Made by a program: the position numbers and the translations under genes. The notes under the pieces are model-generated. The model saw nothing but the letters and a program-made list of their open reading frames with translations, searched no databases and was not told where the DNA came from. DNA of 64,000 nt. Origin: Thermoanaerobacter ethanolicus JW 200 (GTDB lineage: Bacteria > Bacillota > Thermoanaerobacteria > Thermoanaerobacterales > Thermoanaerobacteraceae). Below are positions 39,481 to 45,090 of the stretch, in pieces. Each line of letters starts with the position of its first letter. The stretch's first letter is position 1. The DNA lies in assembly GCF_003722315.1 (NCBI RefSeq), contig NZ_CP033580.1:1239001-1303000 (forward strand), read 5' to 3'.

Positions 39481-40359
39481 ATGAATGAAAAGTATGAACT
39501 AAATAAAAATTTAGCCCAAATGCTAAAAGGTGGTGTCATCATGGATGTGACAACACCAGAACAGGCAATTATTGCGGAAAAAGCAGGTGCTGTTGCTGTC
39601 ATGGCACTTGAAAGGGTTCCAGCTGATATTAGGGCAAGAGGCGGAGTTGCAAGAATGTCAGACCCTAAAATAATAAAGGAGATAAAGGCAGCAGTATCAA
39701 TCCCTGTTATGGCAAAAGTTAGAATTGGGCATTTTGTGGAAGCACAGATTTTAGAGGCACTCGGGATAGATTTTATTGATGAAAGCGAAGTTTTAACCCC
39801 TGCAGATGAGATGTACCATATAAACAAATGGGATTTTAAAGTGCCGTTTGTATGCGGTGCGAGAAACCTCGGAGAGGCTTTAAGGCGCATAGGAGAAGGA
39901 GCTTCAATGATAAGGACAAAAGGAGAGGCAGGGACTGGAAATGTAGTAGAGGCTGTAAGGCATATGAGGACGATAAATGCCGAAATAAAAAGGCTTACAA
40001 CTTTAAGGGAAGACGAACTTATGGCTGCTGCAAAAGAACTTCAGGCGCCCTATGACCTTGTAAAATATGTTGCACAACACGGAAGACTTCCAGTTGTGAA
40101 TTTCGCAGCGGGAGGTATTGCTACACCGGCAGACGCGGCACTTATGATGCAACTGGGTGCAGATGGAATTTTTGTGGGTTCAGGAATATTTAAATCGCAA
40201 AACCCTGAGAAAATGGCAGCTGCTATAGTAAAAGCCACAACATATTTTGATAGGCCGGAAATAATTGCGGAAGTTTCAGAAGGGCTAGGAGAAGCGATGG
40301 CCAGCATAGATATAAGGCAACTGGAAGAAAAAGATTTATATGCAACAAGGGGATGGTAA
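39481..40359 (+). CDS. pdxS: Pyridoxal 5'-phosphate synthase subunit PdxS
   Basis: 292 residues, the synthase subunit that makes PLP from ribose 5-phosphate, glyceraldehyde 3-phosphate and ammonia. Active-site lysines are in MAKVRIGH and within [19 protein letters not shown]; the phosphate loop is in [43 protein letters not shown] precedes the ATG. It forms a two-gene operon with pdxT. PLP is the cofactor of KamA and KamDE in the operon beyond the introns. Confidence 0.97.
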
Positions 40360-40360
40360 T

Positions 40361-40924
40361 TTGCGCGTAGGAGTTTTGGGAGTTCAAGGCTCTGTTAAGG
40401 AACATATGGATAAATTAAAGCTTATAAAAGGAATTGAAGCGGTAGAGGCAAAGGACAGGGACACTATCTTAACTCTCGATGCCCTCATTATTCCAGGTGG
40501 CGAAAGCACTGCAATAGGAAAAATACTTGTAGATTTTGGGCTTAAAGATGCCATTTTAAAGTTAAACGAGAGGAAAGTTCCTATATGGGGTACTTGTGCA
40601 GGCATGATACTTATGGCTAAACATATAGTTAATGATGAGAGGATACACCTTGGAATAATGGATATTACTGTTAGACGAAATGCTTACGGAAGTCAGATTG
40701 ACAGTTTCAAGACGCGGCTTATGATACCAGCGGTATCTGAAAATGAGATAGAAGCGGTGTTTATAAGAGCGCCGTATATAGAGAGTGTAGGGGATGGTGT
40801 TAGGATACTTGCAAAATATGAAGGTAGAATTGTTGCGGCACAGCAGGACAATTTACTTGCTACAGCATTTCATCCAGAACTTACAGATGATTTGAGCTTT
40901 TACAAATACTTTTTAGGGCTTTAA
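40361..40924 (+). CDS. pdxT: Pyridoxal 5'-phosphate synthase glutaminase PdxT
   Basis: 187 residues, class I glutamine amidotransferase that feeds ammonia to PdxS. The nucleophile is Cys in IWGTCAGMILM; the His and Glu are in ATAFHPELTDD. The start is a TTG at 40361, one base after the pdxS stop, with AAGGGGATGG upstream and the usual sequence RVGVLGVQGSVKEH. The stop codon lies inside the terminator stem. Confidence 0.96.
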   Translation: MRVGVLGVQGSVKEHMDKLKLIKGIEAVEAKDRDTILTLDALIIPGGESTAIGKILVDFGLKDAILKLNERKVPIWGTCAGMILMAKHIVNDERIHLGIMDITVRRNAYGSQIDSFKTRLMIPAVSENEIEAVFIRAPYIESVGDGVRILAKYEGRIVAAQQDNLLATAFHPELTDDLSFYKYFLGL

Positions 40925-40943
40925 CTTGTTAAAGCCCTTTTTT
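40915..40943 (+). terminator. pdxT terminator, target of intron 1
   Basis: AGGGCTTTAA (40915-40924), loop CTTG, TTAAAGCCCT (40929-40938), then TTTTT. Group II intron 1 begins three bases after the T run, the usual insertion position of class C introns. Confidence 0.92.
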
Positions 40944-40945
40944 AC

Positions 40946-42856
40946 GTGCGCCCGGCATGGGCGATAGCTAGGCGGTGAAAGTCCGCTGTGGGCTTGGTAG
41001 TGGGAACCACTAGCCAAGAGCAAGGGTGTCCATCGTGAGGTGGAATCTGAAGGAAGCTTAAGGCAAAATCTCGGTCTGATGAACAAGAACCAGATAAGAG
41101 GCTGAATTGGGGTGGATGAGTTTGCGTAACAAAACGAAGTCCAACACTACCCGAATCCCATACAGTAAATCTGGCAGATATATGAGATGAAAGTTATCGT
41201 TCTTACCCGGGGAGGTCTCAAGGATAAGTCATGGAAGTAAAATCTGAAGTGACAACCCATGCAGTGATGTATGGCTGAACCTTGAGAAGTCAGCAGAGGT
41301 CATAGTACTTATCTAGACATGAATAGATAAGGAAGGACCGAACGTTAGGAGGTTTTGGAAATCTTATGGACTCGAAAGATATGCAGAGACTGCAGACAAC
41401 TCAACCAAGAGGCTATCCGTTGAATAGAGAAATGGAATTTCAAAAGACAACGGAAGTGCATAGTATATCATCGGCGTCGGAAGATGGAAGAAACGAAGTA
41501 CAAAGATATACCAGCAAGATGCTTGAAATGATAGTAGAACGAAGGAACATGGAAGCAGCATACAAGCGCGTTGTTGCAAATAAAGGAAGCCATGGAGTCG
41601 ATGGGATGGAAGTAGATGAACTTCTACCGTATCTCAAAGAAAACTGGGCAACCATAAAACAACAACTGCTGGAGGGGAAATACAAACCACAACCAGTGCG
41701 AAGAGTAGAAATTCCCAAACCAGATGGAGGAGTAAGACTACTAGGAATACCTACAGTACTAGACAGACTAATACAACAAGCAATAGCCCAAATACTAAAT
41801 AAAGTCTACAACCATACATTTTCAGATAGCAGTTATGGATTCAGACCAGGACGCAGTGCAAAAGACGCAATAAAAGCCGCAGAAGCATACATAAATGAAG
41901 GATACACATGGGTTGTAGATATGGACTTAGAAAAGTTCTTTGACAGAGTAAACCACGACATAATAATGTCCAAACTAGAAAAGCGGATAGGAGATAAAAG
42001 GGTACTAAAGTTAATACGAAGATACCTAGAATCAGGAGTAATGATAAACGGAATCAAAGTATCAACAGAAGAAGGGACACCCCAAGGAGGGCCATTAAGT
42101 CCCCTATTAGCAAACATAATGTTGGACGAACTAGACAAAGAACTTGAGAAACGAGGGCATAAATTCTGCCGATATGCAGATGACTGCAACATATATGTAA
42201 AAAGCAGGTCTGCAGGAAACAGAGTAATGAAGAGCATAAAGAAATTCATAGAAAGCAAATTAAAACTAAAAGTCAACGAAGCAAAAGTGCTGTAGATAGA
42301 CCATGGAGAAGAAAATTTCTTGGATTTTCATTCTATACAAAAGAAAACGAAGTAAGAATAAGAATCCATGAAAAATCCATCAAAAGGTTTAAGGAAAAAG
42401 TAAGAGAAATAACCAATCGGAACAAGGGAATAAGCATGGAAAACAGAATAAAAAGACTAAATCAAATAACAACAGGATGGGTCAACTATTTTGGATTAGC
42501 AGACGCGAAAAGCATAATGAAAACCCTTGACGAATGGATAAGGCGAAGACTAAGGGCATGTATATGGAAACAATGGAAGAAGATAAAAACGAAGCATGAT
42601 AACTTAGTAAAACTAGGAGTAGAAGAACAAAAAGCCTGGGAATACGCCAATACAAGGAAAGGCTACTGGAGAATATCCAATAGCCCAATCCTAAATAAGA
42701 CTCTTACAAATAAATACTTTGAAAGCATAGGTTATAAGAGTTTATCCCAAAGATATCTAATTGTACACAATTCCTAATGAACCGCCGTATACCGAACGGT
42801 ACGTACGGTGGTGTGAGAGGACGCTGAATAAAATAATTATTCAGCTCCTACTCGAT
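40946..42856 (+). mobile_element. Group IIC intron, copy 1
   Basis: Starts GTGCGCCCGGCATGGG and ends TACTCGAT, 1911 bases. It has the long structured 5' part, an RT-maturase gene in domain IV, a domain V (GAACCGCCGTATACCGAACG onwards, about 42779-42813) and a domain VI hairpin GCTGAATAA/TTATTCAGC. The only length difference from copy 2 is one missing A in the maturase gene. It lies just downstream of the pdxT terminator. Confidence 0.93.
41366..42777 (+). pseudogene. Group IIC intron maturase, frameshifted (copy 1)
   Basis: Reverse transcriptase with motifs as in copy 2 (SYGFRPGRSAKDA, VVDMDLEKFFDRVNHD, GTPQGGPLSPLLANI, CRYADDCNIY). The frame breaks at 42283-42286, where copy 1 has AAAA and copy 2 AAAAA, giving a stop at 42295. 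The remaining maturase X domain is readable in another frame to 42777. The enzyme from copy 2 could still act on this intron in trans. Confidence 0.93.
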
Positions 42857-44768
42857 GTGCGCCCGGCATGGGCGATAACTAGGCGGTGAAAGTCCGCTGT
42901 GGGCTTGGTAGTGGGAACCACTAGCCAAGAGCAAGGGTGTCCATCGTGAGGTGGAATCTGAAGGAAGCTTAAGGCAAAATCTCGGTCTGATGAACAAGAA
43001 CCAGATAAGAGGCTGAATTGGGATGGATGAGTTTGCGTAACAAAACGAAGTCCAACACTACCCGAATCCCATACAGTAAATCTGGCAGATAGATGAGATG
43101 AAAGTTATCGTTCTTACCCGGGGAGGTCTCAAGGATAAGTCATGGAAGTAAAATCTGAAGTGACAACCCATGCAGTGATGTATGGCTGAACCTTGAGAAG
43201 TCAGCAGAGGTCATAGTACTTATCTAGACATGAATAGATAAGGAAGGACCGAACGTTAGGAGGTTTTGGAAATCTTATGGACTCGAAAGATATGCAGAGA
43301 CTGCAGACAACTCAACAAAGAGGCTATCCGTTGAATAGAGAAATGGAATTTCAAAAGACAACGGAAGTGCATAGTATATCATCGGCGTCGGAAGATGGAA
43401 GAAACGAGGTACAAAGATATACCGGCAAGATGCTTGAAATGATAGTAGAACGAGGGAACATGAGAGCAGCATACAAGCGCGTTGTTGCAAATAAAGGAAG
43501 CCATGGAGTCGATGGGATGGAAGTAGATGAACTTCTACCGTATCTCAAAGAAAACTGGGCAACCATAAAACAACAACTGCTGGAGGGGAAATACAAACCA
43601 CAACCAGTGCGAAGAGTAGAAATTCCCAAACCAGATGGAGGAGTAAGACTACTAGGAATACCTACAGTACTAGACAGACTAATACAACAAGCAATAGCCC
43701 AAATACTGAATAAAGTCTACAACCATACATTTTCTGATAGCAGTTATGGATTCAGACCAGGACGCAGTGCAAAAGACGCAATAAAAGCCGCAGAAGCATA
43801 CATAAATGAAGGATACACATGGGTTGTAGATATGGACTTAGAAAAGTTCTTTGACAGAGTAAACCACGACATAATAATGTCCAAACTAGAAAAGCGGATA
43901 GGAGATAAAAGGGTACTAAAGTTAATACGAAGATACCTAGAATCAGGAGTAATGATAAACGGAATCAAAGTATCAACAGAAGAAGGGACACCCCAAGGAG
44001 GACCATTAAGTCCCCTATTAGCAAACATAATGTTGGACGAACTAGACAAAGAACTTGAGAAACGAGGGCATAAATTCTGCCGATATGCAGATGACTGCAA
44101 CATATATGTAAAAAGCAGGTCTGCAGGAAACAGAGTAATGAAGAGCATAAAGAAGTTCATAGAAAGCAAATTAAAACTAAAAGTCAACGAAGCAAAAAGT
44201 GCTGTAGATAGACCATGGAGAAGAAAATTTCTTGGATTTTCATTCTATACAAAAGAAAACGAAGTAAGAATAAGAATCCATGAAAAATCCATCAAAAGGT
44301 TTAAGGAAAAAGTAAGAGAAATAACCAATCGGAACAAGGGAATAAGCATGGAAAACAGAATAAAAAGACTAAATCAAATAACAACAGGATGGGTCAACTA
44401 TTTTGGATTAGCAGACGCGAAAAGCATAATGAAAACCCTTGACGAATGGATAAGGCGAAGACTAAGGGCATGTATATGGAAACAATGGAAGAAGATAAAA
44501 ACGAAGCATGATAACTTAGTAAAACTAGGAGTAGAAGAACAAAAAGCCTGGGAATACGCCAATACAAGGAAAGGCTACTGGAGAATATCCAATAGCCCAA
44601 TCCTAAATAAGACTCTTACAAATAAATACTTTGAAAGCATAGGTTATAAGAGTTTATCCCAAAGATATCTAATTGTACACAATTCCTAATGAACCGCCGT
44701 ATACCGAACGGTACGTACGGTGGTGTGAGAGGACGCTGAATAAAATAATTATTCAGCTCCTACTCGAT
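42857..44768 (+). mobile_element. Group IIC intron, copy 2
   Basis: 1912 bases, beginning GTGCGCCCGGCATGGG directly after the last base of copy 1, with no exon between. The two copies differ at only a few positions. The stem-loop of domain VI of copy 1 (GCTGAATAA/TTATTCAGC) lies just upstream of the junction and may have replaced a terminator hairpin as the homing signal. The 3' end lies 20 bases upstream of the kam promoter. Confidence 0.93.
43277..44689 (+). CDS. ltrA: Group IIC intron reverse transcriptase/maturase, intact
   Basis: 470 residues. RT domains 0-7 (RRVEIPKPDGGVRLLGIPTV, SYGFRPGRSA, DMDLEKFFDRVNHD, GTPQGGPLSPLLANIML, RYADD at the active site) are followed by the maturase X domain (NRIKRLNQITTGWVNYFGLADAKS). 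There is no HNH endonuclease, as expected for class C. AGGAGG lies 13 bases before the ATG. It would splice and mobilise both introns. Confidence 0.95.
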   Translation: MDSKDMQRLQTTQQRGYPLNREMEFQKTTEVHSISSASEDGRNEVQRYTGKMLEMIVERGNMRAAYKRVVANKGSHGVDGMEVDELLPYLKENWATIKQQLLEGKYKPQPVRRVEIPKPDGGVRLLGIPTVLDRLIQQAIAQILNKVYNHTFSDSSYGFRPGRSAKDAIKAAEAYINEGYTWVVDMDLEKFFDRVNHDIIMSKLEKRIGDKRVLKLIRRYLESGVMINGIKVSTEEGTPQGGPLSPLLANIMLDELDKELEKRGHKFCRYADDCNIYVKSRSAGNRVMKSIKKFIESKLKLKVNEAKSAVDRPWRRKFLGFSFYTKENEVRIRIHEKSIKRFKEKVREITNRNKGISMENRIKRLNQITTGWVNYFGLADAKSIMKTLDEWIRRRLRACIWKQWKKIKTKHDNLVKLGVEEQKAWEYANTRKGYWRISNSPILNKTLTNKYFESIGYKSLSQRYLIVHNS

Positions 44769-44817: not shown

Positions 44818-44871
44818 ATATTATAGATGATAAGCTTTACATTAATTTTGAAAACTTAATAGCTTTTAATA

Positions 44872-45048
44872 GCATAAATAGAGGAGCGGGCAAGCAGGTA
44901 CCTACAGGGTGTTAAGGAGAAGAACCTCCAATACTTGTGGCGAAGGTTTGTCTGCCGAAAGGGTATACTTGTTCTTGAGTATATCCTTGGGGGTGAGAAC
45001 AAAACTCATCACTGTCATGGGTGATGGCCCATGGAGCGCTATTTATGC
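44872..45048 (+). ncRNA. Lysine riboswitch (L box)
   Basis: The aptamer matches the lysine riboswitch: AGAGGAGC at the start, a GGAG..CTCC arm, GGCGAAGG and GCCGAAAGGG in the core, a P4 stem GGGTATACT/AGTATATCC, the TTGGGGG junction, then ACTGTCATGGGTGATGGCC and CATGGAGCGCTA at the end. Helix P1 is GCATAAATAG (44872-44881) with CTATTTATGC (45039-45048), ten pairs. The P1 3' strand is also the 5' part of the terminator that follows. Binding of lysine should hold P1 closed and prevent the terminator, an ON switch suited to a catabolic operon. Confidence 0.93.
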
Positions 45049-45090
45049 AGTGAAAAGATTTTCATTGCATAAATAGCGCTTTTCTTTGTC
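45035..45090 (+). terminator. Riboswitch-controlled terminator
   Basis: AGCGCTATTTATGCAGTG and on to 45056 pairs with 45059-45080 (ending CATAAATAGCGCT), 22 pairs with one G-U, followed by TTTTCTTTG. Its 5' arm includes the whole P1 3' strand of the aptamer, so aptamer and terminator exclude each other. Confidence 0.92.

Follow-up and report, generated by a model that had tools for sequence, protein, structure and literature searches.

The Thermoanaerobacter italicus intron Ta.it.I1 is, like the introns described here, a group IIC intron, presumably of the same genus, with a terminator stem-loop and IBS1 as its target, and it performs IEP-dependent lariat splicing and reverse splicing into terminator-IBS1 DNA in vitro (PMC7161350). 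In the parts of that report drawn on here, it was studied as a single intron and no tandem arrangement is described. Class C introns located after terminators (Robart et al. 2007, cited in PMC4424553) share the target of a stem-loop plus a short IBS1 and the lack of an endonuclease domain; the account of them in the citing paper mentions neither re-insertion at an occupied site nor exon-less twins.

Insertion of one group II intron into another is known from the twintrons of Thermosynechococcus elongatus (PMC2882425) and Trichodesmium (PMC4649490), which are likewise bacteria with many intron copies. Those twintrons are nested, the inner intron interrupting the outer, whereas neither intron of the twin reported here is interrupted. 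In the nested group II introns of Methanosarcina acetivorans, repeated homing yields a perpetual homing site (PMC4424553), as is proposed here; however, the M. acetivorans target lies inside other introns, whereas the twin would have used an exon terminator, with insertion at the edge of an intron. Searches of the open-access literature found no description of group IIC introns in exon-less tandem, and we regard the twin as a genuine, if modest, variant of known mobile introns.

Two abutting group IIC introns downstream of pdxT

The window, which is the whole stretch of 64,000 nucleotides that was analysed, contains the following features at this locus (window coordinates, strand):

40340-40924, +, pdxT, the 5′ neighbour gene (194-aa ORF; the name is from the initial annotation, and the sequence is compatible with it)
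40915-40938, +, pdxT terminator stem-loop, the class C target, with a 10-bp stem and a 4-nt loop (stem search)
40942-40945, +, IBS1 TTAC, which pairs with EBS1 GUAA (EBS1/IBS1 covariation, 66 sites)
40946-42856, +, copy 1, group IIC intron of 1911 nt with a frameshifted maturase (sequence, Rfam)
41126-41129, +, EBS1 GUAA of copy 1 (alignment position, covariation)
41366-42295, +, maturase ORF of copy 1, truncated to 309 aa, with the RT domain but without GIIM
42283-42286, +, A4 run (A5 in copy 2), the copy 1 frameshift (sequence, alignment)
42780-42856, +, domains V-VI of copy 1, with the domain VI stem at 42823-42831 / 42837-42845 (RF00029, 46.3 bits)
42856-42857, +, exon-less junction of the last base of copy 1 and the first base of copy 2
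42857-44768, +, copy 2, group IIC intron of 1912 nt with an intact maturase (sequence, Rfam)
43037-43040, +, EBS1 GUAA of copy 2 (alignment position)
43277-44689, +, reverse transcriptase/maturase of copy 2, 470 aa (TIGR04416 and PDB 6AR1 matches)
44692-44768, +, domains V-VI of copy 2 (RF00029, 46.3 bits)

Both copies are complete group IIC introns that start with GTGCGCCCGG and end with CTCCTACTCGAT, and in the window sequence copy 2 starts immediately after the final base of copy 1, with zero spacer. The Rfam D1D4-3 model matched copies 1 and 2 with 154.5 and 155.6 bits, D1D4-1 matched each with 77.7 bits, and the DV-DVI module RF00029 was found in each; therefore, the domains of a group II ribozyme (RF02001, RF01998 and RF00029) are present in both. 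The copies differ at 13 positions and by one deleted base, and so they are not a single sequence assembled twice. Because both are uninterrupted, full-length and abutting, the pair is not a twintron in the sense of one intron interrupting another. Upstream of copy 1, the terminator stem is followed by TTTTTAC and ends 7 nt before the insertion point. The initial annotation had described two near-identical group IIC introns joined head to tail without an exon, copy 1 directly after the pdxT terminator as the class C target and copy 2 starting at the base after the end of copy 1, and this observation is confirmed in each respect. As for the group IIC assignment, near-identical copies at new sites, 16 of 25 solo sites being vacant in the sister strain, suggest that these introns splice and are retromobile.

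A lysine riboswitch (RF00168, 85.8 bits, window 44871-45049) lies directly 3′ of the twin, and the genes after it look like a lysine fermentation operon.

Repeated occupation of homologous terminators in related genomes

On the host chromosome (G000, 2.91 Mb, one contig), 35 intron 5′ ends were counted; about 33 copies are complete, some of these being interrupted, and identity is 98-100%. Exact head-to-tail twins were found at four sites (chromosome coordinates with strand, 5′ copy first):

257700-/255788-
502930+/508053+, the first member carrying an insertion element
1279946+/1281857+, the twin of the window
2169025-/2167113-, the second member with an internal deletion

The initial annotation had asked whether related strains have the same twin. 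Two further twins are present in a congeneric genome (G003), which makes six in two single-contig genomes, all seamless; in one of the G003 pairs, the 3′ copy is broken at 217 nt by an insertion element, and the remainder lies further along. The sister strain of the same species (G001) and other genomes of the order have no twins, and only G000 and G003 were positive among 24 genomes. A degenerate junction pattern run against about 85,000 species genomes found one junction in each of two unrelated drafts, a Bacillota bin and a Moorellales bin, both at contig edges, and the search of viral contigs gave no twin junctions. Thermoanaerobacter wiegelii is listed among the species rich in group II introns (PMC8919778).

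The window site is empty in G001, where 700 nt of flanking sequence is 100% identical, and in two other genomes (G002 and G004) a different group IIC intron, about 80% identical, occupies the pdxT terminator. Homologous terminators were occupied in G001 or G003 for 3 of the 4 host twin sites versus 3 of 26 solo sites (Fisher p 0.018, on small numbers). The introns at these three twin sites (G001 108563+, G001 1624420- and G003 148852+) are from other sublineages and match either twin member in part only; no relative was identified that clearly carries a twin's resident intron by itself. These comparisons show that introns of relatives have repeatedly used the same terminators. When 25 solo sites of the host were checked in G001, 18 could be scored, 16 as empty and 2 as occupied, which indicates that most insertions are recent.

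By a rough tally, there are about 17 distinct candidate targets in the window, or about 770 per genome by extrapolation from the window only. With uniform reuse of targets, a rough estimate gives about 1 double insertion over three genomes, versus the six observed; therefore, either hot sites or a coupling of both insertions must be assumed. One hairpin seems to be used on both strands, by an ORF-containing intron at G000:C1:1433367 and by an ORF-less intron on the opposite strand at G001:C1:1007716-1008373.

Insertion elements were observed within several intron copies. L034 (G000:C1:1155379-1158953) and L035 (G000:C1:1536142-1539716) carry the same 1648-nt insertion, probably of IS110 type by its protein, at an identical position (about 1065-1079), and the two intron copies differ in haplotype; this suggests either gene conversion or an element that inserts site-specifically into the intron ORF. 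A 3.2-kb element with TGTCAATTCTCAAATTAA ends and ATPase-like and transposase-like ORFs interrupts L017 and L033 (G000), L069-L070 (G003) and probably L080-L082 (G001), and a 5.1-kb version of it contains further ORFs.

Target rule and order of insertion

The target rule was taken from 60 solo insertion sites in G000, G001 and G003. In all 60, IBS1 position -3 is T and the 3′ end of a stem lies 2-9 nt before the insertion point. Covariation over 66 sites fixed EBS1 at intron positions 181-184: copies with EBS1 GUAA follow TTAY, and the ORF-less copies of G001 with ACAU follow TTGT, so that the EBS1-IBS1 pairing is short (GUAA/UUAY and ACAU/UUGU). There are 3-4 such pairs in 63 of the 66 solo and 5′ twin copies versus 2 in all six 3′ twin copies. 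The +1 base of ORF-containing solo copies is T in 33 of 45, A in 9 and G in 3, and G at this position is tolerated.

Solo sites scored from -1.2 to 13.0 (median 8.0). It was found that the junction of a terminator with the GTG of a resident intron scores 1.2 to 8.1, inside the solo range, whereas the end of copy 1 joined to the exon scores -7.2 to -2.0, lower than every solo site. The upstream position of a second intron therefore fits the target rule. Copy 1 lies after a terminator as it stands, and copy 2 does so only with copy 1 removed.

The twin is thus quite probably the product of two insertions into one terminator, the newcomer being placed upstream of the resident. The first group IIC intron to insert after the pdxT terminator, the resident, would most likely have been copy 2. 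The RNP of a second intron would then have recognised the same stem-loop and IBS1, which the resident leaves unbroken on its upstream side. Reverse splicing at the boundary of IBS1 and the first base of the resident would have turned the GUGCG end of the resident into the 3′ exon of the newcomer. Class C introns read mainly the 5′ exon (the stem-loop and an IBS1 of 3-4 nt) and one 3′ base only, so that occupation would neither destroy nor protect the site, and the target would be recreated with each insertion. It is more likely that copy 1 is the newcomer and copy 2 the resident. The haplotypes of the four host twins do not consistently suggest a younger 5′ member: in the window twin and 257700-, a near-identical sister exists elsewhere for the 5′ copy, and in 508053+ and 2167113- for the 3′ copy. 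The mosaic intron haplotypes point to gene conversion.

The main rival to upstream insertion is template switching: during target-primed reverse transcription, the reverse transcriptase (RT) would reach the 5′ end of one intron RNA and continue on another, starting at the 3′ end of the latter, and both copies would be integrated as a dimer in one step. In vitro, the RT of another group II intron does jump from an intron RNA's 5′ end to further templates, second intron RNAs among them, and often does so seamlessly (PMC3280974). Such a step would explain the surplus of double insertions without hot sites, and two of the four host twin sites are empty in the sister strain with identical flanks, which implies that both copies arrived within a short time. 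However, extra nucleotides, mostly A, were seen at some of the in vitro junctions (PMC3280974), and all six junctions here are exact. Template switching also does not predict that the terminators with twins are those occupied in relatives. Furthermore, a fully reverse-spliced lariat offers no free 5′ end from which the RT could switch. We consider a one-step origin unlikely.

The initial annotation proposed instead that the second intron homed downstream, with the domain VI hairpin of copy 1 mimicking a terminator. This hairpin has 9 bp, its stem score of 20.7 lies in the lower range of terminators, and the junction is on its 3′ side. As a target, however, the end of copy 1 (CTCGAT) offers IBS1 CGAT with G at -3 and 2 of 4 EBS1 pairs, as in all six twins, and the hairpin stands 11 nt away, versus 2-9 nt at solo sites, with no T run. 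Placing the second intron upstream needs no exception to the target rule, and domain VI mimicry needs several; on the grounds of IBS1, spacing and the site score below all solo sites, mimicry was rejected as very improbable.

That the twins are assembly artefacts, reads of different intron copies having been wrongly joined, is hardly credible: about 35 copies at 98-100% identity make mis-joining conceivable, but the twins number six in two single-contig genomes, a repeat mis-join alone would not yield exact intron-intron junctions, the twin members that bear an internal deletion or insertion element resemble no other copy, and the same exact junction occurs in two unrelated drafts. For the window site taken alone, a mis-joined repeat retains a small probability. 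Tandem duplication by unequal crossing-over was rejected for two reasons: exon sequence would then separate the copies, and each twin combines two different haplotypes with 13-21 differences.

Maturase supply, predicted splicing order and probable site reuse

The copy 2 protein matched TIGR04416 with 460.6 bits and the GsI-IIC RT (PDB 6AR1) with an E value of 1e-170; its best solved relatives are this RT and a group II intron maturase (7UIM). Its domains are RVT_1 and GIIM only, that is, those of an IEP with RT and X and without an endonuclease. In copy 1, A4 in place of A5 leaves the 309-aa ORF that lacks the maturase domain GIIM. The intact maturase is therefore confined to copy 2 within the twin, as the initial annotation had stated. 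Its further suggestion that copy 1 may depend on copy 2 holds in part: service in trans is probable, but copy 1 need not rely on copy 2 specifically, because 21 further copies among the 22 of the host chromosome with an intact 470-aa maturase could provide it.

The frameshift of copy 1 recurs in 2515437-, whose sequence is identical, and in 1677751+ and 1746650+, which each differ from copy 1 by a single base; the defective allele therefore spread after it had become frameshifted, and the 22 intact copies presumably supplied the maturase. The 1-nt A5 deletion is common to 1279946+, 1462253+, 1677751+, 1746650+ and 2515437-; one of these five host copies, 1462253+, has a quite different haplotype, and its deletion may stem from independent slippage, gene conversion or a homopolymer sequencing error.

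A separate family was observed in G001, comprising thirteen near-identical 658-nt ORF-less group IIC introns (L083-L095, e.g., G001:C1:481319-481976) that consist of intron parts 1-561 and 1815-1912. EBS1 is changed from GUAA to ACAU in this family and IBS1 from TTAY to TTGT, and by its sequences the family appears to have changed its target and spread in trans. Similarly, ORF-less group II copies are mobilised in trans in T. elongatus (PMC2882425).

With regard to splicing, copy 1 should leave first and copy 2 second, because the immediate 5′ exon of copy 2, CUCGAU, pairs badly with its EBS1, whereas that of copy 1 pairs well. Removal of copy 1 would join the terminator exon to copy 2 and restore a normal IBS1. 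Excision of both introns as a single unit is possible. The chemistry is available, since Ta.it.I1 splices and reverse-splices in vitro.

On balance, it seems that a class C intron is not immune to further insertion at its target and renews that target itself, since terminator-IBS1 followed by GUGCG would be almost as good a target as the empty site. Arrays would then grow stepwise at their 5′ edge, and the RNA would splice in a fixed order, the outermost 5′ intron first, with each step recreating the next 5′ exon. As a rule, a mobile element with a defined homing site destroys its own target by inserting there. The twins suggest that this does not hold for introns that read mainly the 5′ exon, in which case some terminators would be repeated landing pads. 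The twins also offer a natural and simple way to examine ordered splicing, as well as reverse splicing at the edge of an intron, and Ta.it.I1 is a biochemically tractable relative for such tests.
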